From contig RSEE01000093.1 in the NCBI GenBank assembly GCA_003971905.1, positions 186,001-250,000 of the forward strand: a stretch of 64,000 nt of DNA, written 5' to 3'. The stretch's first letter is position 1. Each line of letters opens with the position of its first letter. Source of the DNA: Moniliella sp. 'wahieum' (taxonomy: Eukaryota > Basidiomycota > Moniliellomycetes > Moniliellales > Moniliellaceae). The position numbers were made by a program, and so were the translations under genes. A model generated the notes under the pieces. That model saw nothing but the letters and a program-made list of their open reading frames with translations, did not search any database and had not been told where the DNA came from. Below, piece after piece: positions 4,098-62,412 of this stretch.

Positions 4098-5407
4098 GGT
4101 ATGCGGGGCAGGAATGGGGACGGAGGGGACGGTGGGGACGGTGGTGGCGGGAGGGCTGGCAGCGGCCCAGGGAGAAGATGGCTGGGGGGGCTGGCTGCTT
4201 ACGCGAGCGGCGCGGGGTTAGCGCTTAGTGCAGGTGTCGTATCGCAAAACACACACCTCGTGCCGGCGCAACAGCACAACGGGGTTAGGCCGATGGTCGG
4301 TGATCGATTCTCGGTGATCGATTGCCGCTCTGGCTCCAAGATCGATGCGAGCGGTTAGTCATCGATCGTCGCATCCCTCCGTATCCGCGTCCCACCGCTG
4401 GGAGCGCAGCCCCACAAAAGCCCCACCACACTGCCTGGTTGCCCGGGGGGTTCCCCCGCAGTCTACGTCACGGCTGTCACCGGTCACCCATCCCTCCCGC
4501 CATTCGCCTCGTTGCAATCGGACGTAACGCGTAACGCGTAACGCGTAATGCGTAGCGTAACCTGACGTAACCGCGTACTCTGACCTAGTAATATGTAATC
4601 CACGTGGATACGAACATGAGCGTGGCAGACAATCTGTGAACGATGAAAGTTCAAGTTGGACGCTGAGCAACCCCCATCTCCATCCAACCATTAACGTCAT
4701 TAACCACAGACTCTTTTCCGTAAGGCTCCTCCAGCCCTTAACCATATAAAAAACTGGTTGGCAGTCTTGGTGTCTTTAGAGTACTCGCATATGGTCCTGG
4801 ACGGGGGACAGACGGCTTTTGAGAGCGTTCGTGTGGTGGGTAGCCTCGTCACACTCCGCGTGCTCTCCACTAGTCGAAAACCAGCTTCTTTTTTGTCCGC
4901 AGGCGTCGCACAACTCTCAGCAGCCACGCCCACTGTATGGCCAATTCACCTCCCACTCGTTTGTCAGCACAGGAGAGGGTCATTGGCCATTGCCTTGGTC
5001 GGCTCGACGCAGGTGCATCGAATAGCCAATCTGGGACAACAGGGGACTACACTTGTACCCAATGAGCCACGCTGCGCGTTGTAGATAGAAAAGCAGGACA
5101 AAAAAAGGTATGCATCAAGGGCCCATGAGAATAGAGAGCGAGAACAAAGAGCAACAGGCAATATGCGGAACAAAGTACAAAGGATAGAAGGGGGACGTGG
5201 GCGGGCTGCTGGGCAAGCCGCGGTACGCTAGAACGACAGAACAAAAGGCAAGGAGAGTGCAAGTTGGCCGCAAAGGTCCACCCGATCCAGTCCCTAAGCC
5301 CCAGAGAGGGGGGGGGGGGCGTAGAAGGAAAGAGATGGGTGCAATGGAAGAAAAGACAAACGACAGAGACCGTGGCCGTGATGAGAAGCAAGATGGGGCG
5401 GCTCGAC
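4098..5407. other. Intergenic region with TAACGCG and TGATCGA heptad repeats
   Basis: This is the putative promoter of the IML2-like gene plus the 3' flank of the WW-domain gene. TAACGCG is repeated three times in tandem at 4525-4545, with decayed copies up to about 4576. TGATCGA occurs twice exactly 14 bp apart, at 4301 and 4315. A run of 12 G lies at about 5308-5319. No conserved protein is visible on either strand. Confidence 0.55.
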
Positions 5408-6505
5408 TCATACCAACAGCGCCCCGAGCACCAGACCACCCACCACACCCGTCACGATTGGCAACGCTGCTCGTTGCTGCTGGAATTCCCGGCCGGGAGG
5501 CAAGCCGGTCGCGTCAAAGTTGGGGGTACGGATGCACTTGAGCTGTGGGTCGACGAGCAGCGTGGCACATGGATCCTGCATCGGCACGTCGCCTCCAATC
5601 GCCGGTCGGGGCGGAAGCACGACTACATCCCGCCCATCAATGTCTTCTTGCACAAACTGCGCCACGCCCGTTTCGCGACTGATGGTGAATGCGCGGGCGA
5701 GGCGAGCATGGGCATCGGCAAAGACATCGCTGCGCTTTTTCTTGGCTTGTCTCCGCTCTTGCCGCTCGGCATGCGTGCTCTTGGTCATGCCGTCTTTCAG
5801 GCGTCGTCCCATCTTCTTGAACCCACCTACGGGCTTTCCATCGACCAGCGACACAGGCGGCTCGGGTTCGGAAAGTTGCGCCTGCGCCTGTAGCACCCGC
5901 TCGGGCGGAGCTGAAAGCTCGACGCCCACGCCCAGTTGGCGTAGGCGGAACAGCTTGTTCTCCCACTCCACACACGCCCGTTCCGGGGCAGAAAGCGAGG
6001 CCAAGTACCGCTCCTCAAACAGCGGGTGGTTCCACGTACTTTGTCCGGCTCCCTTGTTGGCTTGGGTATCGACGTAGTACCACCTCGAATGGTCAGGCGA
6101 GAATTCGGCGACCCAGCCCGGCGGCAAGGCACGCTCTTGGCCCAGAGAAGAATCCAACACGGGCACGGAGCTGCTGGCGGGTCGAGGTCGGGCCGTGATG
6201 GTGTGCGCGCGAGTGGGGCCGGCGCTGGGCTGGGAGGGGGAGGAGGGTCCGGCGTGGGATAAGGGTCGGCGCGGACGCGGGGCGGCTACCGAGTCGCCAT
6301 AGGAAGGGGGCGCCTCGTCCCCGGCGGGAGGTGGTGCTAGGGGGGGGGGGAGGTCAGGTGGGGCGGCGGGACCGCCGGGGGCATCGAGCGGTGGCGGGCG
6401 TTCGTCGGCGGGGGTGGAGGCGGAGGTGGAGGCAGAGGCAGAGGCAGAGGTGGGGGCGGAGGTGGGGGCAAGGAGCGGCGGAGGCGGGGCAAGAGACAGG
6501 GCCAT
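5408..6505 (-). CDS. WW-domain protein with C-terminal membrane anchor
   Basis: A single intact reading frame of 365 residues. The first ~125 residues are Pro/Ala/Ser-rich and disordered, with a PPSYGDS motif (PPxY-like, the kind of sequence WW domains bind). A WW domain lies at about residues 128-162: LPPGW at its start, the aromatic pair WYYVDTQ, then STWNHPL with the second conserved Trp and Pro. A basic stretch follows (KKMGRRLKDGMTK, ERRQAKKKRSDVF). The last ~18 residues, LPIVTGVVGGLVLGALLV, form a hydrophobic glycine-rich helix ending exactly at the stop, as in tail-anchored proteins. The role is unknown. It may recruit PPxY proteins or itself to a membrane. It is one of the few long genes here with no frameshift. 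Confidence 0.75.
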   Translation of the reverse strand: MALSLAPPPPLLAPTSAPTSASASASTSASTPADERPPPLDAPGGPAAPPDLPPPLAPPPAGDEAPPSYGDSVAAPRPRRPLSHAGPSSPSQPSAGPTRAHTITARPRPASSSVPVLDSSLGQERALPPGWVAEFSPDHSRWYYVDTQANKGAGQSTWNHPLFEERYLASLSAPERACVEWENKLFRLRQLGVGVELSAPPERVLQAQAQLSEPEPPVSLVDGKPVGGFKKMGRRLKDGMTKSTHAERQERRQAKKKRSDVFADAHARLARAFTISRETGVAQFVQEDIDGRDVVVLPPRPAIGGDVPMQDPCATLLVDPQLKCIRTPNFDATGLPPGREFQQQRAALPIVTGVVGGLVLGALLV

Positions 6506-7203
6506 GGTGGTGGGTGGGAGGGGCGAGAGGCAATGTGACCGGTGACGGGTGAAGGGGAAGGGAAAGGGTTAGCGCTGCGAGCAGGTGGAGGCGGCTGGGT
6601 CGTTGGGGCGACGACAGATGCTCGCTCGCGGAGAGCAGTGGCGAGTGGAGGGACAGGCGAGGCACGCGCCCGCAGTGGCAATGTCCAACGCGAGCAGATA
6701 GGATGGTCGGGTGTGGCTGGCGTGTGGCTGGCGGTGGCCTGCGGGGCCAGTCGGGCGCCTGGCCTGTCTGGCCTGCACCACTCGGACCGAGCACCGCACG
6801 TGCTCAGTTTGCAGTATTTCTTACTGAGTACGCCTTGGCCCGAACAGTGCCTGCTGCGCCTCAGCGCACGCCTCCCCCATCATGCATCACCCACCCCGCC
6901 CACGTGGAGCCCAGGCGCGTCTGACCACGCCACACTGCCCTGCCCTGCCATCAGCTACCGCCATCTTGAACATTGCACATCATGCATCATTGCACCGCCC
7001 GATGAAATAACCCTAACCCCACTCTGGTCAAATCAGCTCAAAATGTGCCGCAGCCGGAGCACGCAGCCAGTCGGGGTGCCCGAGGGTTCGGTTGCTGTAA
7101 CCCTACCCGCCCTCCGCCTGGCGCTGCTGTTTGGACCCGGGCCTGTCCGCCGCGTCGACGCTGGCCGGCTCATCTCCTCACCAGCACAAGCAAGCAAGTC
7201 GAG
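6506..7203. promoter_or_regulatory. Divergent promoter region of the WW gene and RPL35
   Basis: The 698 bp between divergently transcribed start codons. It holds AACCCTAACC at 7009-7018 and a related TAACCCTACC at 7098-7107 upstream of RPL35. It also holds a GGGTTAGCGCT word near 6566-6576 that recurs near 4215. The AACCCTAA word resembles the Tbf1/telomere-box element known from ribosomal-protein promoters of many fungi; the functional role here is inferred. Confidence 0.5.
7009..7018 (+). promoter_or_regulatory. AACCCTAACC box upstream of RPL35
   Basis: The word lies 186-195 bp before the RPL35 start codon. The identical 10-mer is found 192-201 bp before RPL29. The conserved spacing supports a shared ribosomal-protein promoter element, possibly a Tbf1-type site. 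Confidence 0.5.
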
Positions 7204-7658
7204 ATGGTACGTGTGCTTGGCCTTGCATCTTGCCGTTGTCCGCCGCGGCTACTGACCCCTCGCGTCTGTGTTTTGCTGCGTTCCGCCAGGCCAAGATCAC
7301 AGCAAAAGAGCTTCAGGCCAAGTCCAAGGCTGAGCTGACGACGCAGCTGGAGGAGCTCAAGGCGGAACTGCTTTCGCTCCGGGTTGCCAAGGTCGCCGGT
7401 GGCTCCTCCTCGCGCATCGCCAAGATCAACAGCACGCGCAAGGACATTGCGCGTGTGCACACGGTCATGCACGCCAAGCAGCGCGCCAACTTGCGCGAGT
7501 ACTACAAGAACGCCAAGTACCTCCCGCTCGACCTGCGCGCCAAGAAGACGCGCGCCCTGCGCCGTGCACTGGCCCCCGAGGAGAAGAAGGCGACGACGGT
7601 GCGGGCGCAGAAGAAGGCGCATGGCTACCGCAAGGTGACCTACGTTCTCAAGGCCTAA
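7204..7658 (+). CDS. RPL35: 60S ribosomal protein L35 (uL29)
   Basis: uL29 of the large ribosomal subunit, located near the polypeptide exit tunnel. The protein is 123 residues, close to the 120 of yeast. Exon 1 is only the start codon (7204-7206), followed by an 83-nt intron (7207-7289, GTACGT...CGCCAG). Exon 2 then runs to the stop at 7656-7658. The frame reads M-AKITAKELQAKSKAEL, then the family signature DLRAKKTRALRRAL, and ends with GYRKVTYVLKA. An intron directly after the ATG is common in fungal ribosomal-protein genes. It is transcribed away from the WW-domain gene and has an AACCCTAACC box about 190 bp upstream. Confidence 0.97.
7207..7289 (+). other. Spliceosomal intron of RPL35
   Basis: Donor GTACGT directly after the ATG and acceptor TTCCGCCAG before GCC AAG ATC. 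It contains a CTACTGACC branch-like sequence. Length 83 nt. Confidence 0.9.
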
Positions 7659-10219: not shown

Positions 10220-11867
10220 GCCTGTGAAATATAGGCCTGGCCTGCGCATCGCGGGGATCCTGGGACTGCCCCCGTTGCGGACGAGGGCAGCCAGCAGGGG
10301 GGCAGTGCCTGGCCTGCAGGCTGCAGGGCAGACACTGAGCTGATGCGTGCTGATGCGCTGCCCGGTGTCGGAGGCGGCGGCACAGGGCCAGAGGGGGTGC
10401 TGTGCTGAGTCTGGGCAGTGGGCGCCGGCGCGGAGGCAGTGTGGGCTGCGGCTGAGCGCTATACGCTGAGCGATCTGGGTCGCCAAAGAGGACGCGGGGG
10501 GACGGCGGGCACAGCCAGCACCGCGCAGCACACCACCCGAGCCCGAGGGCGCAGACAGGCGCCAGGCCGCCGGCGGGGATGCGCAGGCGACGTCACCTGT
10601 GTCGGATGGGCGCGGGGGATATGAGGCAGATGGATCGATGGGGCGACCATAGTAAGGTGCGTGGCTGCGCTGCTACTGGGTCCGACAGCTGGCTGTGATA
10701 GACAGGCACCGTGACAGAGTCAAGAGTCAAGACCTATGCCGCCCTCGTAGATCGTACGGCCTACAGGCCACACCACACGTTTGCCGAGATCATTTGTCGC
10801 GATCAGAGCGTTGGCAAGCTGGGCTCTCTTCCATTGCAGATTCCATCGGCACATCGGCCACATACTATTTCTGTTTTCATGCCTCTCGTTACCAATCCAT
10901 CCATCAGATGGCCACGCAGTGCTCTTCATTCATGTGCATCATCAATCGAATCATCATTGCACGCACACGAACCGCCCTAGAAGCTTGAGCTGCTGCATGG
11001 CAAGCCGCCGTTGCAGCCGCACTTGGAAAAGGGCGATAACGCGAACGCTTGATTAATAACCCTCTGTTGTTAGGTTCGTTCACCTGTGGGGTGTGGGGTG
11101 GATGGCCAGGTGCGAGTGTGTGCACACTGCCCCCATCTATCTGCTGCGTTCTACGCGTTAAGGTGGTGCTGTGGGGATTCGCTGTTATGGTATAGTGCAG
11201 TGGTGGTTCGATCATCGATCATCCCGTATTCGTGATATCTGTGTTGTGCGCCGGCGCACAGGTTCGCTCTCAGACGACCTGACGAGCTGATGACACTCCT
11301 GCTTCGCCAACCAGCGTCCACCACGCTTCTACGCCCCATCCTGGGACTGGCATCCCATATCTTCTCCATCGAGACTGGTCTCCCCACTGGCCATCAAACT
11401 CGTCCACATTGGCAGTTGCACCGCACAACAGAAAGTAGTAGCCCTCTCTTCCCCCCAAGGCCCGACCATCAACATCCAATACTGTTCTTCCAGATACCCT
11501 CCCGAGAAATACCCTCCTAGTCCTCCCGAGCACACATCAGGCTGGGCCGATACAATATGCGTAGCCGTCTTCGTTGTTCTTCGGACACTATACTTGGATG
11601 AACTGCCGCTGCTGTTTGTGGATTGCTTTGTCGCAGCCGTCCGTTCTGATTGGGTCAAGTCGATCGATCGATCAAGGCCATAGTACAAGTCTATGGGCGA
11701 AGGGGCCTGGAGACCCCCCCCCCCCTACCGGTAGAGAGCAGGAGAGAAAGGATGAAGTAAGGATTTGAGAGCGGCCAAACATCAAAATGGGAGAGGCACT
11801 AGCTCATGTTCTGAACCTGGATGCAACGGCATTTGCCAGGCTATTATCCATCATACTCTTCGAGGGC
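10220..11867. other. Intergenic, RhoGEF to TUL1
   Basis: About 1.65 kb with no supportable gene on either strand. It includes the presumed RhoGEF promoter and the TUL1 3' flank. It contains a TCGATCA heptad pair at 11208-11221, a (TCGA)-rich word near 11660-11675, and a C12 run near 11704-11715. Confidence 0.5.
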
Positions 11868-20968: not shown

Positions 20969-21202
20969 GGTGGTGGTGGTGGAGACAAAGAAGTAGATAG
21001 CGGGAACAACAGAGCAGGCCGCCCGCGCTCGCTCCGTCCGCAGGAATCCAGTCCACGCTCCCAGCTCGGCTGTGGTAGAAAGACAGCCAACGTCCACATT
21101 ACGTTACCAGACCCCCGATTTGCACACCATACATCATGCATCCCACATCACCATGGGCACGGTCTCTGAGCTGTCACGTGTGATGTGGGGAATGTGATCA
21201 GG

Positions 21203-21223
21203 TGACATGTGACATGTGACATG
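21203..21223. repeat. TGACATG heptad array (three units)
   Basis: Three perfect tandem copies of TGACATG, i.e. TGA plus the palindrome CATG. It is upstream of the RPL29 promoter box and belongs to the heptad family described in the findings. Confidence 0.9.
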
Positions 21224-21374
21224 TGATGCCGCAGGGCCACGAACCCTAACCTGTAGAAAGAATACGCAAAACTTGCCGCAGTCAACCCTATCGCCTCCTG
21301 TGGCTGGCTGTCTAGGCCTACCAATGAGCCCGAGGCGCTACTTCCCCACCACAAAGCTCCGCTAGAATCACGAG

Positions 21375-29850: not shown

Positions 29851-31575
29851 AACTGAGTGGGGAGGAGGAAACATTAAGGGTTCTTATCCGGACAATATTA
29901 TCTTCACCTTGAGACTTATAACCGATAAATCAACTTATAGTACATGTGCCCAAACGATTGGGGCGATCTTCCCTCCACTTAGTTGTTCAGGGGTGGCTAT
30001 ATCTGACGGCAACAGAAGCAAATGTGCTACCCGGGATTGTCTCTTCATGGGGGGATATCCCTCACCGTGAGTACGAGGATAAATTCGACGAAACAGTTAC
30101 TCATTCGAAGACGCGGTGTAAAGAAAGGGATGGGTCCAGCCGGAGACCGAGAGGCCCTTGGACACACGTCGTATGTGTAGGCACAAGTTCGGGCATGCGC
30201 ACAGAAAAAGTTTGATTGAAAGTCTCTCAAATCATCTTATGCCGGAGTTGCTTTTCATCATCGTTTCTGTTTGTGGTGGGGCCACAGAGGCGGTACATTT
30301 CCGGATGGTGCAGCGGTGAAGACAAGCACGACTATTGCGGGCCTGATGGAACCCAAACCTTTCCCCGCCCTCATAGTTATAAAAGGACAGGAAACGAGTT
30401 GGTTTGGGGGGATGGTGTATAGAACTCTCGTTACACGTGTAGTATAGAGGGTCACCGGTCACCCCCGACGCGAGAGACTCTCTGAGATGGCGGAAACCCA
30501 CCTCTTCTGTCCTCCATTCTTTCGGTACCTCTCTTCACATGCGACTCCTACATGACGTGCATATGATGGGTGCAGTTTTGACAATGCGATGGGGAGCTTG
30601 TGTTCGAAGAGCGGCCGCACATAGTATAGAGATGTGTGGCACGAGAACGAGGCATATAAGAATGTGTCGGGTAAGAGGTACTAATAAACCGTCCTCTTGT
30701 TGGACGCAATTTCAAGGTTTGTGATAGAGGGCGTGACTGTGAGTGTTTTATAGGGGTGTTCGTACGGGTGTTCGCACAGCTTTAGTGGGAGATTTGCTGC
30801 GGTCTTCGCCGTCAACAACAGGCCTCTCTTCTCTTCTCATCATGCTGTTTCCCCACCCCGTGACAGAGAGTCCCGTTACCACCCTCTCCCGGTAATATCG
30901 GTAATGCTAACCGAGCATTGATGGCCACGATGCATGAGCCGATTGGAAGCTTTGAGACCCTCACATGTGAGTGACATGTGACACACGTCTATATTCCAAC
31001 GCCGCCGCCTCTTCCTCCATTCGCGGTGGCGCGCTATATACGCCCGGGGACGTACCAATTATCATCTTTCCCTCTGCCGCACAGATTTGGCAGTGCCATT
31101 CCACTTCGACAGGACTTGGATATATATATATGCCGAAGACGCGACTACCATCGCAATTCCCATTTGTGAGCCCATTTCTGTCAGCAGTAGCAGGAAGCAG
31201 GGTATGTGTGGCTGCGAGATGCTCGTTGAGCGACACTGAACGTTGAATGTTGAAGAACGTACGTTGAACACGTTAAACGTTGAGTGCATTGACTTCTTGA
31301 GCTTAAGCGCCGCGGAAATTGCCGTTTAACGTGTTTAACGCGCTACACGATCGGCTTCGATCAGGCGACGTTGTGCAAGCGAGATACTGTGCATTTGTGG
31401 ATGCATTCTCACAGAGGCTGTGAGAATGGAACGAGTAATGCTAGTGATGAGCGCGCTTTTAGCTGAAGCGACTCTACATCGCTCAGCGTTGACGCTCACC
31501 TCCTGAGCTCTCAAGTTTTACTCCTGAGTAGTGCTCAAGCCCTCACGCGTCACGTACTGAGGACTGAGGCTCAGT

Positions 31576-31596
31576 ACGTTCAACGTTCAACGTTCA
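31576..31596. repeat. ACGTTCA heptad array (three units)
   Basis: Three perfect tandem copies. In the complement each unit is TGA plus the palindrome ACGT. Related single units surround it (31236-31285). Confidence 0.9.
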
Positions 31597-31803
31597 GTAT
31601 CAGTCCACAGGACGAGACAAAACTATACCGTCGCGAGTCGCAGGCCACCTGTCACATACATGTCACGCCGAGCTTCTTGTATTCCTTCGCACATATCTCT
31701 CAGAGCGGCTGCTGTGCGGTATTCGGCTAGGTTTACTTACTTTTGCATGCACACGTTTGCAGCTAATAGATGTTTCATCCCGTCTGAGGTCGATGATCGA
31801 TGC

Positions 31804-31821
31804 GGCCTGAGGCCTGAGGCC
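31804..31821. repeat. GGCCTGA heptad array
   Basis: Two units plus a third GGCC: the palindrome GGCC separated by TGA. Confidence 0.85.
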
Positions 31822-32294: not shown

Positions 32295-32585
32295 TCACTA
32301 GTCACTATAGTCACTAGAGTCACTAGCGTCAACCGGCGATGGAAAAACCAATGCCCGACTCAAGTACTCAAAGGACCTGCAGTGTGATGCATGTGATGGC
32401 ACGTGACATGTGACACTGGTATCTGACAGTCAGACGGGACGTTCGCGACGCGTCGCTAGTCACTAGTCACTGTGACGAGTATTTACCAGTTGAATTCTTA
32501 GTGACCGAGTGACCGGTGACCGGCCCTAGCCTGCTCCGCTTAGCTTGGCCTAGCCTGGGGACCGGCTTACCGGTTACCGGTTACC
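32295..32585. repeat. Cluster of CTAG-, CATG- and CCGG-core heptads
   Basis: Within 290 bp: TCACTAG units at 32295-32317 (with 2-bp insertions), TGACATG near 32404, CTAGTCA twice at 32456-32469, TGACCGG twice at 32510-32523, and TTACCGG twice plus a partial at 32567-32585. Confidence 0.85.
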
Positions 32586-32705
32586 AACAACGCGGTACGT
32601 ACACTCTGTTTGGATCTAAGATCTCTGATCTCACCATGTCACACCTTCTCACACTCGTTTGCCAGTGGCGAAAGCACATGTGCCTGGGTGCGACTATGGG
32701 CGCTG

Positions 32706-32751
32706 TCAAGCTTCAAGCTTCAAGCTTCAAGGCGCGCTTCAAGCTTCAAGG
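32706..32751. repeat. TCAAGCT heptad array
   Basis: Three and a half perfect tandem units (TCA plus AGCT) at 32706-32731, then a GCGCGCT interruption and further units to 32751. Confidence 0.9.
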
Positions 32752-33396
32752 TAGTGTCACCATGTCACCCATTCGCGCTAAGCTTAATCATTCATCAGCC
32801 TAGGGCCTAATCGATGACAGGACTGGCCCAGCACAACCACCATGGCGTGAGGCGTTGCCTAGCGGTGCACGCACTGGCGGTGCACTGTTACATGTTAGGG
32901 TTTTGCACACCATCCTTAATCCTTGCAGCCCACACTCATTTTCCTAGCCTGCACCCTGGCTGAGCACCGAATCTCAGATCGCAGCATTCGCTACATATGC
33001 AGGCACCCACTTCTTGCATTGTGAGTTGCATGTGAGTCCCGACTACCGAATGAGTACTTGGTGGCTGTGTATGAATGAGATCGACGGTGGCCCGCCACAG
33101 GACCCTGCGGCCTGGAGAGCGACTGCAGAAGCGGCGACACCGCAGGACAAAGGGCTATGTGATACATCGCACATAGGTACTAGGTGGTGGCGCTGGTGGC
33201 ACACCCGAATCTATGGAGCGTCTAAGCAGATTATTAGCAGAACATAGCATTGTAATGGGTTGCTGGTGTCCTCCTCAAAACTCTGGTGCGCGAGGCACCA
33301 TCACGTCAATCACGAAGATAAGTAAACGTTCGGGGTAGTAAAAGTTCGGGGGAGGCATCCCTGAGAAGCCAGAGGCGGGGGGCCAATCCGCATCGA

Positions 33397-35057: not shown

Positions 35058-38000
35058 GACACCAATAGTTGTGAGAGAGGGGTGGGTGTTGTTGGTGGAA
35101 GAGGGGGAAGGTCGATGCTGGGGGGCAAGCTTTTTGTGTGAGTTCAAAGCTCGCTTGGATGGAGGTGCGCAATATAAAGCTGGCGAGGGCTGGGCGTTTG
35201 CTTGCGCCTATCATTGACTTGAAGCTGAAGGCAGGCAAAGGCAGCAGGAGGTGATCGTCACGCGTCACACACCACACATGCATGTGCATGAGCGCTGTCT
35301 CAGTACTGAGTAGTACGTAGTTGCGCAGTGCACCGGCGCATCAGAGCACCAGCGCCAGCCGCCAGCCCTGTACTTACAAGCCAGTCAAGTACATAGCATT
35401 GATTGGGACTTCGCGCACAGATGATCGATGATCGATGTCGATGACAAGCCTCCAGGGGGCGCTGAAGCTGAAGCGCTGAAGGTGCTGAAGCTTGACGCTC
35501 TGTAGTGCAGAAACTGTCGCAAGCCTCACTGAGGAGGCCCTGAGGCTTGAGAGCTTGAGGCCTGGGCCTGACGTCTTTCGGGTGTGGGAACATGTGAATA
35601 TTGACTATTGAATCGCCGACAAGAACCGAGCACTCGGACTGAGTACTGAGTGACTCTAGTGAGGCTAGTGGCTGCCTCATTCGGTCGCAAACACACCCCG
35701 ACGGCACACACTCAGACAGGATTTCACCGTTTAAGACATTTAACGTTTTAAGTTTTAAGACGCTACGCGTTCGTAGCTTGAAGCTTGGCTGGCGTCCTTG
35801 TGCGACGATCGGCCTAGACCTTTTCCTTTTTACCGGTCGACAGATGCTCGCACTCAGCTGCCTATCGACATCGAGTATCGGTTACTCTCCTCGCCGTTTG
35901 TTTCCACATCCGTTTATCTCCCCTAATTGATTATATTGCTCACGAAGTGTTAGGATTTGAGCGCCTCCGGCCCTCAGGCCCTCATCAGACCCAGGCATCA
36001 GGCCCTTCGGCCCAGGCCTCGGGGTCTCTGGGCCCGAGTCGGCTTGGATTTTAACGACTGTAATGCCGATCAGATCGATCATCTCTTACTGTGACCATAT
36101 CATTGGCAGAGCTTAAGGCCGTGTGGGACAAAGAAGCGCTGCACCTAAACCAACTTCCTCATCCGGCGTGTGTTGCTTGTTGGGGCCAAACTCCATTTAG
36201 GAAACACAGAAGAGCCATCACATGCACAGTAGGTCAGGACCCTCTGGCGCCCGCTATCCGTTTTTCCAAACCCAACTAGATAGCTCGCGTGTGGATACGA
36301 ATGGGCGTGGCAGATGACATGATCCGAGCGGTGAACTCGGTGAACCGGGGAACGGGGTGCCGGTGGACATCCATCCCCCCCATGAGACTCTTATTTGGTA
36401 AGTCTCTTTCCTACAACCTAACACCTTGCTGTACCACCCCCTCTTGGTGATTAGTATTATCCTCGCGTCGTCATAACTAAAGGGGGAATCAAGGTTTTTT
36501 GACTGCATCCCTGGTATTGGGCGTTCTTGTCGCATTCTGCTTGTTAAAAATCGGAAAAAACACCCGGGGTGTGTGTGATGCACATACAGCGTCTAGACCT
36601 TCGGCCTTATAGGCCTTAGGCCTTAGGAGAGTATCGGTAATATGATTACGACACCATCTCGTCCCCATCTCCACTAAGGACTGTATGGCCGGGTTCTAGC
36701 CTCCCGCAATGGACGCACCCCGCCCAACATCAAAATCCACCCCTCTTTCGGCAATACCAATGCTTCGGGCATTGTCAACAACCGCGCGCCCTAACATCAG
36801 AAGCTGCCAGTTGCTCCGCCTGCCACCGCTCTGATCCGTCGTCGTCCACGATGCACCATAACAGATACACCACATTACACTACAGCCGCCCTCATACCCG
36901 CCCCCGTCGCGTACGTATTTTTGCTATTACTTTCGCACTCCACGTCTCCCTCTGTGGAGAAGAACGCGCCGCCGATTCAGTCCAATCAAGCCCGGCCTTC
37001 TCCATATGCTGCACCCCAGATGCATTCGTCTTCCTCTTCTTTTCTTACTCTTCTGTCTCTCTGCCGTCAGGCACAGTAAACGTTCCAACATCAGGGATAA
37101 GGCATGTCCACGGCTGTCCAAAACTCTTTGCACTACGCAGCGCACGTGTGCGCGAGATACCATCTGCTTTCGAGAGTATTAAAAGAGTTCCCCAACAAAA
37201 GACACGTGCGTACAACGAAACATTGGTCTTCAATACTTCATGGCTTGCCAAATACGGCCATCGCTTGGCCAGTGCTCTCGGGGGAGTGTAACATGTAACG
37301 TTTGATCCTCCATAATGGCGCACCGCTTATATTACTCCGCAGCCTGGCGCCTTAGTACATCCTACCACTTACCAAAAAAGGAAACCCCGACCCCACCCAT
37401 CGAAGATCAGAATGGCTCACACAATGTGCGAAGATCTATCCGACGGGTCTCGCTAAGCCCTACCCGTCCAAAAGGCTCGCAATGCATCTACCCTGGGTCA
37501 AACCCTCGACACACCACTCCTGCGGTCCATCGTCTTGGATGAACCCGAGCAGGTTTGCCGTAACCCTAACTCTTTGAGGTTATTTAGCGCCACCCCCACA
37601 AATCCCTCATGATGCTGCGGTTTCATTTTGGGGCGAGAACAGTTATGGCCAGCGGCAACGCAATCGGCCTACACTTCCCCGGAAATGGCGATCATTCTTA
37701 TGCCCGGCATGGAGGATGATGCCGAGACCCAGGGCCTGCTTGGTGTCCCTGCGTTGCGCTTTCTGCAGAAAAAAGATGCTATAGCTAGGACATATATCGT
37801 CTGCATGCGTCAATAACAACATATACTAAAACTCTCACTCTACATACCCATCCTCTGGTCAGACTCACGCCGTGCTATAGGGGTGTGGTCATGATGCATC
37901 ATGGGGCGGGACCCCAGACGGAGCCCGACCCCAGGATTTAATGGGGGTGAAATCCCTTAGAAGTGGAATCAGAGTTACCTACTGTTGTATATGTCCGGCT

Positions 38001-42905: not shown

Positions 42906-43246
42906 GCGGCTTTCCGCGTTCTATGCCGACGGGCAAAACGTGGGGATCCCAACTTCTGACTCGAGGCCCGGCGGCACGGGTTCCTTATTAAATGGCCATT
43001 CCTAATTCCGCCTTGGGCCGGATACGGTGTCAAGCTTCAAGCTGCAAGTACTCCGCTATTTGCTCAGCACGCGTGCTGGACTGAGTACTGAACGTTCAAC
43101 TTGAACACGCTCTTGTGACGCGTGACGCGTGAACGTTGAACGAACGTGACGTCGAACGGCAATGCGCCTGGGAAAGATGAACGGCTGAGCAAGCATTCAC
43201 GAGCGTCCTCGCTCGCCCCCACCGCCACCACCCACCACCACCACCA
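42906..43246. promoter_or_regulatory. Divergent promoter of pyridoxal kinase and the NAPE-PLD-like gene, containing heptad arrays
   Basis: 341 bp. It contains TCAAGCT twice at 43030-43043, TGAGTAC-TGAACGT near 43082-43095, and TGACGCG-TGACGCG-TGAACGT-TGAACG in perfect register at 43116-43142. A CCACCA-rich leader directly precedes the ATG at 43247. Confidence 0.6.
43116..43142. repeat. Mixed-core heptad array (CGCG, CGCG, ACGT, ACGA)
   Basis: Consecutive TGA + 4-mer units without a gap. The core changes from CGCG to ACGT while the 7-bp register is kept. Confidence 0.9.
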
Positions 43247-45332: not shown

Positions 45333-48300
45333 TTAAGCTAGAACGCATTTCTACGAATCGAAGCAGATATAGATAGGTACATTATAGGAGTTGAGGGGGG
45401 CGCTGCGCAACAAGTGTCCATTCGCGTGTGGGTAGCAGGCTGCGGGCGGATTCAGGGGGTATATACGGATCCGGACACGCCGGGAAGACGTCCCTGCGTC
45501 AACAAAGGCCGTATTACTAGGGAACTGTGGAATTTGGTACCCTACTGTTAATGCGAGCGGAGTATTCGTAGCTTTCCAACGCTCTTTCGAGCCAACTCGA
45601 TTCTAACCCTCTCAGAGAGCGACAACTGCTACTGCTAATGATGTAAAAGGGGAGAGCCATGCAGGGCGACTAGCACCGTCAAGAAATCGATGTATGCCAG
45701 GGTACAATACCAGAACCAGAACGGCATCGTGATAGCATCGCCCAAGTACGAAACCATTGTCACACGGAAAGGAAAGCATCATCATCCTCATCTTCATCAT
45801 CCAAAACGAAGATAAGAAAAGCTTCGCAACAGAGAAACAAAACAACGATTCACGATACTGTACAAAGGGGAATCCGTAATCCGTATAGCCGGTAACAGCG
45901 TTGTATATCGATCTTCAATGCACCTCCTCTCCCATGGGAATAATGAGGAAAACAAGAGAAGAAGAGCAACAACGGTATCTACCTACCCCGCAACCGACGG
46001 TCTCCGCGTGGGTGTGCGAGCGAGCACCTCGTAGAAGAATAGCCGTCCAGAACCGCAGAAGTCTCAGAAAGACTAGCGCTCAGCCTGGGCGGAGAGTTTA
46101 AGCGCTGAGAGCATATATGCCAGCTATTCCTCTATATACGATCCCAACCCGCGGGCCAAAAGCAATGGTGGCAACCGGATCGAATGCCAAAACCTATATA
46201 AAAGGCCAATCCCGTCCAATCATTAGTCCGTATCTATAGCCTCACATGTCACATGAACAACAAGTTGTTCCAGAAACGTTCTGGTTCGTTCTCTAATATC
46301 AGTACAATAGTCACCATGATATGCTTATAGTGTTCAACGTTCAACGTTTAACCTCCCATTGCTCGTTATTGAGTGTAATGTTTAGAATCGACATCTGCCG
46401 TTAACTGTGGTATAATATGGTAGAGTATAGTCCGTGTTCAGACGGTGAGTACTATGGATGCGCATTCGCTAGCACATTTCGGATGTCTGTCCGAAAGGCG
46501 CATCAGTGATGCTCAACTTTTTAATGTGCTAGTATACTATACGACACACCCCTTCCCGGGCCAGCACCACGCCCTGAAGAAGGGGCCAGGGGTGATGATA
46601 CTAGTATCATTGCGGGGGGACTTCTGTTGTTGACTGCCAGTATGTTGCGCCTATCGATACCGGAACTGGTACTACTGCTTTTGAGAAACCCAACAATTCA
46701 TGTTGATGACTTGTTTATGTGGAACTTCTCCGTGTTCTATAGGACACAGCGCGGAACAAAAACAGTATATTGATCTAACCTCTGGGCCTTAGGCTTAGTC
46801 CTTATTTTCAGTATATCGGGGCATTGTTGGTCATCTGTTGTTTGAGAATCTCTCCCCCCCCTCCACGGTACTCGTCCTCATCCGTCAGTATAAGAACTGC
46901 CCAAGGGAGAAGATAAAAGATCGGTGGGGAAATACTTCGCAAGCTGTCTTGCTTCTCCACGCTCTGCGGTGACACGCGGTTTCGGTTACGGGATGGGTTT
47001 TACAGTGGAGAGACGGTCGTCTATAAAGAACAGGGAGGGTCGGAGATATCTTGACTGTATATAGGTGTGCGTGACATGTGACATGAGATCCTCGAACGCA
47101 CATGATCTCTTCCGCTTGCTGTTGATTAGATAGATAGGGCACGTGCCGGTTGATGAAGTGATATTATACACAGATTGTTATGAGACGAAGAGATATCCAT
47201 AGAGATCAGTAGGAGATCACAGCAAAGGATTATTTGGGTCGTATTTCACTTTTGCTTGACGGGTGCAGGGGGGAGAAAAGAGGGCTAATTTCTCACACAG
47301 TATGCAATCAAGAAAAGATAGAATGAAGAACAGAGGCATGTGTGTGGAAACACTGAAAGAGGGGAGATATACAGAGAGCGAGGTGTAGACAACATGTGCG
47401 TGCCAACAGCGAGAAGAGTGACCAAGAGATCTGCCATTACTTTGACCCAACCCAACCGAGTGTTTCAACAACCAACAGACCGGACAAACAGATGGGATTC
47501 TGATTCGACGCACCCCCCGGTCTCTCCTATTCCATCACCGTGCTAATCGGGGTACCATATAGATTGTACAATTCCAGTGGAAACAGAGCAGAGAGTGATT
47601 CGGATCTCTCCCGTGAGTGAGAGCAAAGAAAGCCTGTCATAGTCAGGGCTAAGGCGAGGAAGGTCAGAGTCGAGAGACTAGGTCAAGGGATGTAGCAATC
47701 GTTCGTGGAGGGGAAGAAGCAAGAATAGAGTACATGGTGCGAAGTGGAAGAAACAGGGAAGAAGCGAAACGTACGTGCTGACGAAGAAATTGGAAATGGG
47801 AGCCAGACCAGCGAAACTATGACAAACCCCCACCTTACAAACGATGGTCCGCGGTCGCCCCTATCGTGGCAAACCAGAGAGGCTGTGGAAATGAAGAAGG
47901 ATGTGATTTCCGGATTGATACCAGCCAGGTCTGCTCGATACGTATATTATAGTAGACGAGCAGAGGGTTGTATGAATGAGAGTGCTCTTCTGATCGACAG
48001 AAGGTACTGACGGCTATATATTATAGAGTCAAAATCTCGTGTTCACAGCATTTTCGCCCCAATTGAAGGACGCTGATCCACCAAGGGAATAACGCCTCCT
48101 TTCAGTTTTATATAGAAGGAAGGGTTAGACGTAGCGTTCCCCCTGTCCCAGCCTTAAGCTCTGCCAATGAAATGGACGTACTCTAGAAGGAATGGTGAGG
48201 AACCTCTTTTGCTCAGTTGTGAAATGGGACAATTGTAGAAGAGAGAAGAGGACAATTTCGACCACACCAAAGAGTGGCATTCTGCATCTCGCGATCGGGT

Positions 48301-51300
48301 CAATACTCGGCTTTCTTTTTCAAAAACTGCGGGAGAGAAGAGCTCAAAAGGGGAGAGACAAACTGTTTTGCATTTTCCCGATGAACAACTCACAAGCTCT
48401 CTACCCAAAGCGAAGAGTTTTTCGCCGTCTGGATGGCAGAGCAGACCTCCAGCACCAAAAGGAGATGTATGAAATGACTGTGAACACATATTCTTGTAGC
48501 TGTCGAACAGGAAACTCGAATGCTAACAGGAATCAAAAACGACTGACAACTATAACGACTCTGCTGTAAGGAACCCTGCGCAGGAATGCGTACCCACCAA
48601 GCCTTTTCAGCCAGATCTCGTGAGAGGAAGCTATACATTACCGACAGAGCATTATCCGCTTTTTGGATCCGTGTATACAATACGGGGTAGGAAGAGTTTT
48701 TGTATTCTCTTTTACAGCAGACAATGACTTGTTTTTCTGATTTTTGCGCCTCACAGAGTGACGGACGAGATCCGATCGCCATCGACACGATCGCCCGTCT
48801 CCACCACAGCATCAATGCTCTAGTGCACCACCTGGACTGCATTTATCCGATTCGCTATATTACCACGGCAAACGGTTGTCGCATGTCAGGGCGGATGATG
48901 TGGGTGAGTTTTGTCTGTCGTTCTATGGACGTCTTCGCGATTGCTCCAAGGTGGGCGGGAAAGTGCATCAAATGGTAGAGGTGGAGCAGCACACAACGGT
49001 GGTGCGTCTTTTGTTTTCAGCGATGAACCCCAAGTATCCGGCCCTCTTCTCCCGAAGATGTTCTCATGTTTCGTCGTAGTGACCTATAGGGTGGACGCTC
49101 AACAAAAATCCTTCCGTTACCAGGGGCATTCCCGACGCCAATCCGCTTTTCTATAACGCAGGAAAGGGAGGCGAATTCGACCATAATGTATCGAATCGCC
49201 AGGAAAGAGGAGCTGAGGACTTGTTCATGGCTGTGATACTACCGAAATCTCCATCATGAGACTGATGACTCTCACATGGTACCCATAAGTGGGAAATCAA
49301 GTGACGAACGGGCACTGCGGGCAGGCTTTTAGCTATGGCCATTAACAAGTCCTAAGGGCACGGACTCACCACTCAACGGAGTACTGAGTATACTGCGTAA
49401 TATTGAATCTCGGTCACCTCCTCCATCCCCCCTTTACCCTCGATCGTTTCTATTTGCTCCCTGTTGTGCGTCTCCCTCACGGCATTATATTGCCGTTGGA
49501 TCTAGTAGTCGGGGGCTTCGCCGAATCGTCTCTTTGTTTTTATCAGTATGATGAGGTCTCATCAGCTGCATCAACGAGGAGAAAGAACAACGCCTATTAT
49601 ACGAGCAGCATCAGTAAAACCCGCTCGGGTTGCTGAGCCGATGACGGAAGGCGTTGATGAGGCTGTGGAGTCTATGAGGAGGGTGCTGTGGAGGGAACTG
49701 AGGATAGTATTGATGAACTCATGTAGCCGATGCAATGGACGGTGTTGAACGTTGACGTACGTGAACGTTGAACATAGAACGCTGAACGTTATCATTGGCC
49801 TGAGGGGTCCTCTACACCCACCGGCTCCTCTAACGGCCTACACTGCTGTAATATTATGATTTCCCGTTCTACAATAATACAAGTCTGGATTATAACCTAA
49901 CCCATCCCATCCACTTGGTGCTAAAAGCCGAGGAGAGGGCGAATGTCCGTGGCGTTAAGAAGATTCGATCGGCCTTGCTCGTTCTGCGATACTAAACGTA
50001 CGTTAACTACCAGGCACTGCACAGCCCCGGCCGACCAACCACATGCAGCCCAACACACATCTCCGACCCCCCCTCTCCGTGCCTTATAGCCTCAGGCCTG
50101 AGCCTGAGGGCGTCGTGCACGCGACTGGGTTCCCGCCATCTGGCCAAGAGGGGTCGCGCTGCCAGCTGCATGCGTTGCGCCAGTGCCCACGCACACTTGC
50201 GCACTGTGTGAAGCGGAGAGCAAGGGCAGATATCGTCGGCAATATATAGATCGCCAGTGGCCTTCTCTTCGGAGATTGGGCAGCTCAGATGTATCAGGTC
50301 TCAGGCCCTTAAGCCTTAGGCCTTAGGTCTCCAGGCCAGATCCCACACACCACCCCAGCCCCCCCCTGAGCCCGAGGTTCTTGCTGCTGTTGGATTCGGC
50401 TGTGGGCGAGACAAGCGGGGCTGGACGTTGGCAGGCCTCAGGGGCAAGAGTGTTGTTGGCGACGGTAATAAGGCGGTAATGCACACTGATTGGATATTGA
50501 TGCCTTTAATTTGTTTCGACAGGCAGTAGTGCGTCAGCGTCGTCCTTGAGTCCAGACGCGGCGTCGCCTCTAAGCCCCCCACGGTCCCTTATGAAGATCT
50601 CAAGCCTCAGGGCCTCAGGCTTCAAGCTTCAAATGCCAACAAGGACTGAAAATCGAACGCTGCTAGTAGGGAGTAGGTCCAGGGACAGGCGTTCTCCGTG
50701 GCTCTCGGCATGGATATTGGCGTCTGACCGTACTGAAGGGTACTGAGCTCTACCAAGCACTGTACTGAGTTACTGATTTTGACCACTGGACGACTGTCGA
50801 CCGGCGACCGGCGGCCGACGCCCGGGGTGCCCATGTTCTAGGCGTGTGTGAAGCTTGAAGCAGGCCAATTCAAGGGGAGGTGGTATAGGGGGGCAGGTGC
50901 GCTTGGCTGGCTTGGCCGGTTTGCCGTTCCGGCGCGCTGTATACGTAGGTGCGTACTAAACGAGGTGACGCATGACGTGCGATGCATGATGCCACTCCAG
51001 CCGAAGGTCACATCAACACTACGTTGTGTTCATTCAACTGAACGTTCCATTCAGAATTGCTCAAAACCGATTAACGACCAGGCGCTCAGCTTGCTCATGC
51101 TGCGCTCAGCACTGGACTGAGCGTCCTGAGTAACCAATAACTGAGCCTGCGCTACCTTTTTGCTGTGGCGGGATTAAGGCCTAAGGAGTAGCGATCGGGT
51201 GGTGGAGAAACAACAGGCGCTCGGGCTGTGTGTTGACACACACGCCCCCCTTCATGCTTCAAGCTTCAAGCGTCAGCGCCAGCGCTTCAGCCTCCTCCAA

Positions 51301-51779: not shown

Positions 51780-53471
51780 CCAACGTGAATACGTCTCTTG
51801 GGTCCAGCATCGCCGGACAATCGTCGTGCCAGTGGCTGGATCAGCTTGGTGGGGAAAGGGAGCAATGCCGGGGACGAAGTGGGTGAGCTTGTGCGACTCG
51901 GAATCGGTTGGTGTAGCACCGTCCCCGGGGCAGGATACCGTTCCGGCATCACGTCATTCGGTACCGTAGAAAGGGAGGTGGTGCACCAACCAATCCAGGT
52001 GCCGAGGCATCGCAGCCGGGACCATTTGCAGTGCCCGGGGGCAAACCCCAGGGGGCGGTACTGGTCAGGCAGCGGGGGAAGGCGCAGGTGGCTGGGGGAG
52101 AGGCGTCGATGGCACGGCCAAGGCTTGAGGAGAGGAGGCGGCGGAGAGATAGGCAACCATGTTCTGGTGCATAAAGTTGCGAATGGTAGCCATCTGCATT
52201 TGCATCTGCACGTACGTGTCGACGAGTTTGCGGGGCAACAGGCAGGGTCAAGCCAGTCGTTCGTGGACGAAGACATGAGCCAGGTCTGGGGGAGTCAACT
52301 CGGCCGCGGCGCTGAGGGGTACGGTTTGGCCAAGTCCGCCTTGCCCACCGATCCCATCGTCTGGTACCCACCACGTCCATCTGAAGCTGGGGGTCACAGC
52401 GGTAGGGACATTGACGGATGGGGGGGGAAGGGAAGGGCCTCGTCGAGAAGGTGGAATGGGACGAAGGACTCAGGAGCGGGAGAGAATCGATCGCAGTGGT
52501 TCCGGACGAGGAAAAGGATGCCGAGGTAGGGATGAACCCAAGGAAGACGCGATGGTATCCGATGGAGGGTGGTTCCTTCGGAGCTTGCCCCGTTCGAGGT
52601 AAAGGTACCGCTCGAGGTGGGTGAAGAGGTTGAAGGAGAGGCCTGAGGATACGGGTGAAATAGAGGGGCCGCCATTGGCGAGCCAAGTTGAATGTCCCTG
52701 ACACCGTTTGTAGCCCTGTCGGGTTGGAACAAGGGTTGGTGGGAGAGGTCAGGCTATTCAGCGAGATTCGCAATGCTTGAACCTGGAAAGACACAGCGAT
52801 GCTGCCGAGCCAGGTTCAAAAGCCGCGTATGGCCATCGTCGGGGGAAGCGCTGCCGGTCTCATTGGCCGATTCGGGCGTAGACGCAGTAAAAGCTGTGGA
52901 GGTAGCGGCAGTGCCAGCAGTAGCCTCTTTGCTTGCCTCCAGGGGTTACGGCGGGCAAATTTGGCACAGCGTGCGCATTTTTATTTTCGGTACATGACAT
53001 GCAAGCTGCGTATTCCAGGCCATGAGGTCAATGACAGGTCAAGGAGGAGGAGGGTTGAAGGATCAGGGGCTGGGGGGGGGGGAAACGTACCCTGTTGTGC
53101 TTGCGCAGCTGGCCGACAACTAGGCTTGCCCTCCGGAAGACGTCCTTGTGGAGGCGAGCGTGGCGCACGAGCGAGTCGTGGCGGCTAAACGTCTTGCTGC
53201 AGCAGGGGCACTGGAAGGGACGGTAGTCCACATGGCGGTATTCATGGCGCTGGAGGTGGAGCAGACGGGCAAAAGAGCGTCCGCATTCTTTGCATACAAA
53301 CTGGCGCGAAGGCGACGCACTTGCTGCCGAGGCGGATGCTGCGCCGGCACCACTGGAGGCCAAGCCGTCACTGCTGCGACGGCGGCGGTGGCGGCGGGGG
53401 TTTGCGCCGGAGCCAGTGGCGGGGGCAGGGGGTGGCCCGGACGGGAAGGCAGGGTCACTGTGGGTGTCCAT
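51780..53471 (-). CDS. C2H2 zinc-finger regulator A
   Basis: Starts MDTHSDPAFPSGPPPAP at 53471 with a basic linker (NPRRHRRRRSSDG). Two adjacent C2H2 fingers follow: FVCKECGRSFARLLHLQRH and FQCPCCSKTFSRHDSLVRH, joined by an EYRHVDYRP linker. An 85-nt intron (53006-53090, GTACGT...ATACGCAG) follows. The next exon opens ACMSCTE and, one indel later, CARCAKFARR: a second Cys cluster C-x2-C-x5-C-x2-C shared with regulator B. The rest is a long Ser/Pro/Gly-rich tail with a QMQMQMATIRNFMHQ segment, broken by several frameshifts to about 51780. Probably a nuclear DNA-binding transcription factor. The 3' limit is uncertain. Confidence 0.65.
53006..53090 (-). other. Intron in zinc-finger regulator A
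   Basis: Minus-strand GTACGTTTCCC...GAATACGCAG, 85 nt. The exon boundary before ACMSC matches that of regulator B. The phase is off by one base, probably an indel. Confidence 0.6.
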
Positions 53472-54310
53472 GACGAGGGGCGGTGAAAGCGGTGGCGGGC
53501 GGGCGGAAGGGCGTGCGGGGGTGAGCACGTTGAGCGAGAAAGGGCGCGGGGGTATATATGAAAACCCCTCGTCCCGTCGTGCTCAACTCTGGGTTTCGAC
53601 ACACGGCCCTCGTGCCGCACCGCCCCGGGTGCGGACGCTCCCCCGTGGTGCTGCTCGTTCTTTGGGCCGTACCAATGGCCCACTGCCCCGTGCTGGCCGC
53701 GGCCAGCGGCCTGTTTTCTCTTTGCGCTGCTCGGCGCCGCTCGCTCTCTCGCAGGTACGTACCAGCGTTTAGCGCTTCTGGGCGCCTAGCCTCCAGCAGC
53801 TTAAGCCCGCCGCAGCGTGCATTGTGCATTAGTATTAGTTGCCGTCCAAGACTAACGCGCACCGCGTAACGTCTACTGCGCATCCCGACGAAGCTGGTTG
53901 CAGCGGGGACGGGGGCAGTGTCGCGTGCTGCGCCTCAGCGCCCCGGCTGAGCATGCGGGTGGCGTGCCGAGGCCGGGGGCGCACACAGGCAGCACACGCC
54001 CTGCACTGTGCCGCGATGCCTTGCCACCGCAGCACGCCGCAGGGGTGGGCGCGGCGCTGAGGCTCCGTCGGCACGCGTCACATATCATACGTCATGCACA
54101 TGCGTCATTCGTCACAGGTGACACATGTCACAGCGGAGGTCCACGTACCAACGGGCAGGGCGCTCCGCGGTAAAAAGCGGGTACAGCAGGCACAGCGTCC
54201 AGCGTCCAGCCGCACGCAGCCAACGCCGAGGTTGAAATTTGAAGCTGGAAGGGGCACAGGGTGGCTGGTGGCGGGCGGCCACGAGTCAGCGCGAGCGCTC
54301 AGCCCTTCGG

Positions 54311-54337
54311 TCAAGCTGCAAGCTTCAAGCTTCAAGG
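54311..54337. repeat. TCAAGCT heptad array
   Basis: TCAAGCT, GCAAGCT, TCAAGCT, TCAAGG in continuous register (one first-base variant). Confidence 0.85.
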
Positions 54338-55361: not shown

Positions 55362-55416
55362 TCACGCGTCACGCTAATGCCGCTGCGATACAAGCGTTAC
55401 CGTTACGCGTTACGCG
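55362..55416. repeat. CGCG-core heptads
   Basis: TCACGCG-TCACGC at 55362-55374 and TTACGCG twice at 55403-55416. Confidence 0.85.
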
Positions 55417-60896: not shown

Positions 60897-60920
60897 TGAC
60901 TAGTGACTAGTGAGATCTGA
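60897..60920. repeat. Mixed-core heptad array (CTAG, CTAG, GATC)
   Basis: TGACTAG, TGACTAG, TGAGATC, TGA in perfect 7-bp register. Confidence 0.9.
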
Positions 60921-61697
60921 GAGTAGCTCAAAGCTTTTGCCTATATTATTGTACTGTGTGGCGGGATGCTGTGCCAGAGCGCCTGAGCTCAGCGCCTCCG
61001 CGCCTTCGCAAGCCCTCGAAGGTTTCCTCTATGCCAAACGTGCTGCAGCTCTTACTGACAACGAGATGGAACGTATAGGAAAGGGGTTTGGTATAACTCA
61101 GCACTCACACGTCACATACCCAGTATACTCAGGGCGACCTCTTCTAATATGTATGCAGCGGAGAAGATCTAAGATCATCGATCATATCAATCTGCATATC
61201 ATATACTTCTTGGGGGGTTCCCCCCACACCGGCACGTTTTCGTTCTTCCGTACACAACTGGCCCCAACGCAAGTTATTCAAGAGAGACATTGAGGGGCTG
61301 TGGTGCAGGATCTACCTTTAAAATTTGATGGCACCAACAAGTACTAAGGCCTGAAGATGTGCATGATGCACGTGACGGCGTCTCAATAAGCTGCTGAATC
61401 TTCGATGCACCTACTGCCATTGCCCATTTCTGTTTTGAGTACCTTGCGTATGATCCAGATTCTAGGAACAGTTGTACAGCCAAAGCAGACCTACATTTGG
61501 CCCCGGATGTCCTTCGAAACGAAGCGTTCAGGAGGACACGGATCGGCCCTACTATGATATATGGTACACTTGCGAGTATATAGTGTCCATCGTCTCGTAT
61601 TGAGTATTGCAGATGCTGGAGAAGAGAAACCACGATCGATTGTGGTGCAAGACGTTTGGGGTCTAGATTGATATCGACCTCAACGTTCCCATATCTC

Positions 61698-61735
61698 TCA
61701 GGCCTCATGGATCATCGATCATCAGGCCTCAACGT
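61698..61735. repeat. Mixed-core heptad array (GGCC, TGGA, TCGA, GGCC, ACGT)
   Basis: TCAGGCC, TCATGGA, TCATCGA, a bare TCA, TCAGGCC, TCAACGT. Four of the five cores are perfect palindromes. Confidence 0.9.
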
Positions 61736-61842
61736 CTCAACGGCCTCAACGTCGGCCGACCTCGGCGTATTACTCAGTTACTCGGGTGGCAAGACGGCTA
61801 CCACAGGCGGCACTCAATACTGCAACCACTACTTGAGTATAC

Positions 61843-61863
61843 TGAGTACTGAGTACTGAGTAT
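61843..61863. repeat. TGAGTAC heptad array
   Basis: TGAGTAC twice then TGAGTAT; another TGAGTAT lies 9 bp before. Confidence 0.9.
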
Positions 61864-62412
61864 CCGTCGACATTTTGTTCGGTGTCCACCATACTCACCC
61901 CCCCCCTAACACAATCACCTGCCCGAGGCCTGAGGCCTGAGACTCAAGCTGCAGGAGAAGCGAGTCCGAGCGCTACCTACGACAAACTGTGTGGGACCGT
62001 CATACTTCAACGGCTTATTTGCCCAACTCTACTACCCTCCTATGCCAGCCTCTCACGCATTGAACAAAGTAGTCATAGTATATGCGTCCGGGCCCCGGAC
62101 TTGGTCTGGATCCCTAGGGCCAACAGCTCGCTGTCGATGACTACAAGTACTTTTGGGTTTCAGTGTCCAGCGTATAGCATAGGGGCAATGAGCGCTGAGC
62201 GGCGCTGACCCAGCAGAGAACCCCGCGGACCACCAGGAGAGCAAGTAAAAAAGTACATATATCTCCGCTACGCTCTATATGGGATGCCTTTTTCCTTCCC
62301 ACATATCCTCCCGTCCTACACACGAATCCTCCATCCCGCGTAGGGCAGCCGGTTTTTTCCCACCAATTTCTCATCGCCGAGATCAACCTGGACTTGTGCT
62401 ACGGTAACCCCG

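Follow-up and report, generated by a model that had tools for sequence, protein, structure and literature searches.

Heptad arrays with self-complementary cores in a Moniliella genome: probable footprints of transposase-like insertion at T-N-A targets

Why should many short tandem arrays in one stretch of fungal DNA obey a common rule and yet differ in sequence? The stretch considered here, called the window, comprises 64,000 nucleotides of contig C93 from the basidiomycete Moniliella sp. 'wahieum' (assembly of 69.5 Mb in 223 contigs). A first-pass annotation had described arrays of 7-bp units in it, each unit being TGA or TAA (TCA or TTA on the other strand) followed by a palindromic 4-mer, and had offered two readings of them: a mechanism that generates them, or a protein that recognizes TGA every 7 bp with a symmetric centre. 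Such an array is best read as the product of one recurring 7-bp insertion, whose junction is made self-complementary from one side only. This insertion rule is well supported by the comparison of sequences, and a transposase-like origin of the insertions is probable.

The main counts cover the window and 20 loci of 10 kb (L009-L028, from contigs C1-C20), 264 kb in all and 21 of 49 sequences, with expected values taken from Markov shuffles; loci L001-L008 and L029-L048, which were fetched through the array pattern or an array-rich query, were left out of them. A wider locus set, less 4 or 5 overlapping loci, served for the any-length duplication scan, the mixed arrays and the element searches. 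In the 264 kb, exact period-7 duplications form 180 runs, compared with 16.6 in shuffled sequence, and period-7 runs with a 6-bp palindrome number 90 (1.6 expected), 86 of which have the form A-N4-T, in keeping with the row of such palindromes that had been described. Tandem repeat tables by themselves did not separate the array classes. In a count of the motif TNA-N4-TNA, with the same N required in both triplets, N4 proved to be palindromic in 244 of 441 cases, against 7 of 49 in a 50-kb E. coli control. The excess over the 1/16 share is 9.1-fold for TGA/TCA spacers (208 of 366) and 7.7-fold for TAA/TTA spacers (36 of 75), and at most 2.1-fold for any other triplet in the arrangement XYZ-N4-XYZ, so the restriction to these spacers was upheld.

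The cores themselves are graded in the same sense. Palindromic N4 are found 104 times against 2.6 expected between TGA triplets and 104 times against 3.4 between TCA triplets, N4 with one complementary pair are about 2.4-3.8 times too frequent (TGA, 33 against 8.8 and 25 against 10.2; TCA, 28 against 8.9 and 23 against 9.7), and N4 lacking a complementary pair show no excess (TGA, 16 against 28.9; TCA, 33 against 32.2). The intermediate class fits a decay of palindromic cores. All 16 possible palindromic cores occur among the 197 arrays, which extends the claim of many different cores under one rule, and in this count neither non-palindromic cores nor other spacers are as frequent as the listed ones. 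Across the genome, with overlapping copies included, TGACGCGTGACGCG occurs 370 times per strand (740 in total), its backward control once, and the non-palindromic anagram TGACGGCTGACGGC 2+0 times. The 7-bp palindromic-core arrays are thus confirmed as real. At 18 of the 20 positions listed by the annotation there is a 7-bp array as described; at 60911 the GATC core does not form an array of its own but belongs to the mixed array at 60897-60920, of which it is the third unit, and at 51273 (GCGC) the spacing is 6 bp, not 7.

The origin of a unit can be read from the junctions of arrays that contain exactly two TNA triplets, after exclusion of 184 sites that carry another TNA in register. If a site is written pq-TNA-xy and a prime marks the complementary base, cores consisting of xy and its reverse complement (a copy of the left end) number 41 against 0.5 expected, and cores consisting of the reverse complement of pq followed by pq (a copy of the right end) also 41, against 0.7. 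Another 25 junctions, against 0.0 expected, fit both flanks, the target being an odd palindrome. The remaining classes are plain 7-bp tandem duplications (10 against 0.8), palindromic cores with neither flank fully matching (21 against 6.2), junctions keeping one palindromic (P) base (10 against 2.6) and other junctions (109 against 97.2). The match between flank and array drops near chance two bases beyond the outer TNA, and the half-cores that flank 188 arrays are present on both sides in 39, on one side in 116 (55+61) and on neither in 33, a one-sidedness above chance (Fisher p = 0.002). An ordinary microsatellite was rejected on these grounds: complementary junctions number 82 (one-sided) and 25 (two-sided) but plain duplications 10, and there are 2 copies of the anagram against 740 of TGACGCGTGACGCG.

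Mixed arrays point the same way. A-N4-T hexamers with different cores lie 7 bp apart 22 times, compared with about 5.8 per distance, so that plain copying of a unit is insufficient. In 17 mixed arrays with two cores (tallied over 44 of 49 loci, many of them chosen for holding arrays, and leaving out arrays with units beyond two cores), agreement with the core on its own side is found for the right half-core in 16 and for the left half-core in 12, with cross-fits of 0 and 0; the simplest reading is that of two separate events sharing one TNA. Two traits of an excision footprint, namely a duplication of fixed length with a symmetric target and the presence of P nucleotides, are found. NNTNANN heptads other than odd palindromes are duplicated with 0, 1, 2 and 3 filler bases 36, 34, 34 and 16 times on both strands (1.0, 1.4, 1.0 and 0.4 expected), and two-base fillers are an exact left-end P pair in 9 of 17 cases and a right-end pair in 5 of 17. 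A 5-bp repeat around two complementary bases is enriched 21-fold for TGA, 19-fold for TCA, 11-fold for TTA and 10-fold for TAA, and at most 2.3-fold for other triplets. The symmetric feature that matters is T-N-A at the centre of a 7-bp target. Two other descriptions of the process were tried and rejected: a primary unit in the form of a hairpin with a TNA triloop, because 4-bp stems that are not palindromic show hardly any enrichment (40 against 28.9), and a duplication-plus-P process of any length, since the largest counts fall on the 7-bp diagonal and on TNA, although several other length pairs are also raised in that array-biased scan.

A second haplotype in the assembly allows some of these differences to be observed directly. 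Window positions 29906-34024 align to locus L030 on contig C66 (3509 matching and 123 mismatching bases), and two further stretches of the window align to contig C65 at 91%. Over the 3632 aligned bases of the C66 haplotype there are 68 indels: 23 of 1 bp, 12 of 2 bp, 9 of 3 bp, 5 of 4 bp, none of 5-6 bp, 8 of 7 bp, one of 8 bp and ten longer. Among indels of at least 4 bp, 7 bp is the commonest length, in the second haplotype and the paralogous copies alike. Read by hand, four of the eight exact 7-bp indels (30450, 31237, 31333 and 31804) each consist of a TNA heptad whose core is palindromic, and one (33174) shows the one-sided geometry at TAG. Two differences of 13 bp also contain one-sided events: TCAGT-A-TCAGT at 31594, a duplication with one P-type base, and, at 32786, TAAGC-GC-TAAGC, which the C66 copy carries on its minus strand. 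The clearest case comes from a paralogous pair, in which GTTGATG in L009 corresponds to GT-TGA-AC-GT-TGA-TG in L013, as predicted for a right-end copy; it sets the polarity as that of an insertion, in which the added bases are complementary to the right end. The unmodified target state is seen in sister copies, in C66 at 33174 and 31594 and in the pairs L009/L013 and L001/L037.

Other differences between copies are of a different kind. Two stretches present only in C66, TATGAAC (7 bp, at 30603) and GTTGGCCACA (10 bp, at 31718), do not fit the TNA rule. A segment of 309 bp at 32179-32487, rich in TGA/TCA repeats and bounded by copies of AGTT, is absent from the C66 haplotype, a difference that resembles a loss between short repeats more than the insertion of an element. 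Positions 61092-62300 match both C65 (91%) and C157 (92%), so that a third copy may exist, through segmental duplication, hybrid origin or duplication in the assembly.

The explanation favoured here, and considered moderately probable, is that the arrays are scars of transposase-like cutting with a 7-bp stagger, hairpin ends and P nucleotides, the simplest agent being a cut-and-paste element. By analogy, the 7-bp insertion rule would be the grammar of transposon excision footprints. Bases that are self-complementary but otherwise arbitrary cannot have been selected by a protein and must arise at a broken end, by base pairing or by copying of a strand. An enzyme of the transposase type, cutting with a 7-bp stagger around a symmetric TNA, would leave both chromosome ends carrying pqTNAxy, and both ends would be capped by hairpins. 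Nicking of these hairpins two bases from the tip would expose 4-nucleotide self-complementary overhangs, xyy'x' on one end and q'p'pq on the other, which would be aligned and joined, with mismatches resolved toward one strand; pq-TNA-xy would thereby become either pq-TNA-(xy y'x')-TNA-xy or pq-TNA-(q'p' pq)-TNA-xy. Joining two such overhangs in register yields a palindromic core in every product and a fit to exactly one flank, unless the target is an odd palindrome, and odd-palindromic targets, joining without mismatch, should be over-represented. The junction counts follow these expectations. The simplest agent would enter and leave quickly, as a hit-and-run transposon. The arrays themselves grow by repeated events and probably by slippage, and point mutations erode them.

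Several observations weigh against the footprint explanation. Three of the eight 7-bp haplotype indels, at 32122, 30603 and 33027, have no simple fit when read by hand (that at 32122 being an extra non-palindromic heptad within a TCA array), slippage could also yield the four TNA-heptad indels, and in five paralogous pairs only three of six hand-read 7-bp indels fit the rule. P-type filler is weak at one base (left 7, right 7, either 10 of 17); at three bases it is found on either side in 3 of 8, and TNA is not the top triplet. Heptad duplications with 5-10 filler bases (6-16 against 0.4-1.4) are not explained by the model. A single product class dominates here, compared with the 28 kinds of Ds footprint given for Candida albicans in the passages of PMC5873905 that deal with them. 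Net length differences between haplotypes are small (-3 in 3401 and +120 in 7001 bases), so that any resident element stage would have to be short, and no convincing resident element with a matching duplication was found in 338 kb of the fungal sequence. Whole-genome searches gave no match for the hAT (PF05699, PF14372) and KDZ (PF18758, PF18803) domains, both weak negatives, as no control genome matched either, and none for the MULE domain (PF10551).

Those 338 kb contain 18 pairs of NNTNANN 7-mers with at least five matching inverted end bases, and no end motif is shared between loci among them outside arrays. The strongest inverted-repeat pairs are the arrays themselves. The best candidate, L048:1527-2050, has 510 bp between two copies of CTTCAAG and 10-bp inverted ends; it is doubtful, its ends being heptad-array sequence and its body having no second copy in the loci searched. 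An excess of 7-mer pairs ending in TC..AT was traced to a single repeat in L044. The whole-genome domain searches returned 2 CACTA matches and 148 matches to retroelement integrase. Two possibilities follow: an element that is rare and hardly ever resident, or a process that requires none.

The second alternative has been given two forms. One, possible at best, is a system of genome-wide breakage at TNA in non-coding DNA, tied to no resident transposon, with a 7-bp stagger, hairpins and P-nucleotide rejoining in the manner of V(D)J joining. The other, somewhat doubtful, is that a domesticated transposase, a topoisomerase-like enzyme or a hairpin-forming nuclease cuts at TNA with a 7-nucleotide stagger, the hairpin ends then being repaired in the manner given for the footprint model. 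The lack of a convincing element and of hAT, KDZ and MULE matches (partial or weak negatives), the small net differences in haplotype length and the dominance of one product would all suit breakage of this kind, but a 7-bp duplication on both ends requires two offset strand cuts and fill-in, and deletions would also be expected, a class that these data do not separate. To our knowledge there is no host enzyme that combines a 7-bp duplication geometry with a preference for TNA, a point on which no search was made.

Replication slippage, with the slipped heptad strand folding through its palindromic core into a hairpin with a TNA loop, is improbable as the origin of the arrays. It probably lengthens arrays once they exist, since some have as many as 6-7 units and alleles differ in the number of complete heptads, and it would give the same appearance to the 25 two-TNA arrays whose targets are odd palindromes. 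However, slippage copies an existing heptad and does not produce the one-flank self-complementary junction (41+41), it should leave plain duplications, of which only 10 are seen, it leaves in-register mixed cores unexplained, and non-palindromic 4-bp stems around a TCA/TGA loop stay at 40 against 28.9. The junction and mixed-core data thus oppose the birth of arrays by slippage and still allow their growth by it. Least probable are arrays selectively kept as sites for a DNA-binding protein, since the avoidance of coding-like DNA that would agree with them is accounted for by the removal of frameshifts, all 16 palindromic cores are permitted, half-decayed forms are common and copy number varies between haplotypes. 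Of the two interpretations offered by the first-pass annotation, the generating mechanism is supported, by the 7-bp haplotype and paralogue differences, the one-flank junctions and the mixed arrays, which agree with a pair of events at a shared TNA, and the protein reading TGA at 7-bp spacing is not supported.

The density of the arrays, 197 in 264 kb, corresponds to about 0.75 per kb or one scar per 1.3 kb, and extrapolates to about 52,000 in the genome, a figure derived from a non-random sample and including both haplotypes. Coding-like DNA, defined by 3-base periodicity and not by annotation, is nearly free of them, as the gene-poor location described earlier had suggested: 1.6% of 244 events fall in the most coding-like quartile, compared with 20.6% of 3000 sampled TNA sites, which fits a removal of +7 frameshifts. 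Excision footprints have usually been studied in modest numbers next to a known element. Here the target and junction rule is precise enough to suggest the structure of the broken ends from sequence alone, and some footprint-like scars still differ between haplotypes. A hit-and-run transposon would be a mobile element that shows itself almost exclusively through its scars, and the absence of an element would imply that DNA breakage of a new kind, programmed or accidental, is at work. Either reading entails a sequence-specific, frameshift-making mutation process, which would shape intergenic DNA and bias dating based on indels.

The arrays of the window are collected in Table 1. The AAGCTTC heptad, found in L032-L048 and at window positions 32706-32750, is the commonest exact array (17 of the 90 palindromic runs in the 264 kb) and has many matches across the genome. 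The window also contains gene fragments of the Iml2/TPR39 family (1194-2261, minus strand), ribosomal protein uL29 (7104-7655, plus), a Per1-like protein (34144-35340, minus) and a C2H2 zinc finger protein (53031-53582, minus). The closest named relative of the uL29 fragment is that of Tilletiaria anomala, at 68%, and metagenome proteins reach 81 and 89% over part of its length; by this protein the host is a fungus resembling Ustilaginomycotina.

Table 1. Heptad arrays and related insertions in the window, with C66 denoting the second haplotype
Feature	Position	Strand
TAA heptad array, core CGCG	4523..4548	
TCA/TGA heptad array, core TCGA	11208..11223	
TGA heptad array, core CATG, three cores	21202..21226	+
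GGTCACC twice; C66 haplotype (L030) 7 bp shorter here	30450..30463	
TCA array, core ACGT, then TCAGT-A-TCAGT; 13 bp absent from C66 haplotype	31576..31604	
TGA array, core GGCC; C66 haplotype one heptad shorter	31804..31821	+
TCA array, core CTAG	32456..32471	
TTA array, core CCGG	32567..32585	
TCA array, core AGCT; C66 haplotype lacks 26 bp of array	32706..32750	
TAGGT-AC-TAGGT, insertion geometry at TAG, not TNA; single TAGGT in C66 haplotype	33174..33185	+
TGA array, core TCGA	35420..35437	+
TAA/TTA array, core GGCC	36610..36627	
Mixed TGA array, cores CGCG, CGCG, ACGT	43116..43139	+
TCA array, core ACGT	46332..46348	
TCA array, core AGCT	51250..51275	
TCA array, core AGCT, one unit altered	54311..54336	
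TTA/TAA array, core CGCG	55401..55416	
Mixed TGA array, cores CTAG, CTAG, GATC	60897..60920	+
TGA array, core GTAC	61840..61862	+
TGA array, core GGCC	61925..61941	+

Literature searches gave no description of such heptad arrays among the matches listed. The Tn10 target and the HIV-1 integration consensus likewise have T-N-A at their centre, as expected of strand transfer into bent DNA. The short tandemly repeated repetitive (STRR) heptamers of cyanobacteria are 7-bp tandem units found genome-wide, with fixed sequences; the arrays described here are likewise dispersed 7-bp units, but with a variable self-complementary core. The coding joints of V(D)J recombination have been likened to footprints with flank hairpins and P nucleotides. 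In the parts of PMC7218506 concerned with repeats, Fusarium mitochondrial genomes are described as having palindromic poly-A/T repeats, which resemble the arrays in being short, palindromic, variable in length and intergenic; those repeats are poly-A/poly-T and mitochondrial, whereas the arrays admit any core in a fixed 7-bp register around TNA. Among basidiomycete DNA transposons, 7-bp target duplications are given for Puccinia hAT7 and for Kyakuja (KDZ) of Agaricomycotina in the sections of PMC12730594 that treat these groups, and this length matches the heptads, although the corresponding transposase domains had no match in this genome (weak negatives). A Kyakuja element would be expected to have CA..TG ends within the duplication. 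Footprints of the Ac/Ds type differ in their 8-bp duplication from the 7-bp duplication seen here, which comes with one dominant product and 197 arrays in 264 kb in the absence of a convincing element. For Ds in Candida albicans, the excision passages of PMC5873905 report short deletions or P-nucleotide insertions and explain them by hairpins, and footprints of Ac/Ds and other hAT elements, as characterized there for Ds, combine a target duplication with short palindromic P-nucleotide insertions that have the broken ends at their centre, as do the arrays of Moniliella.

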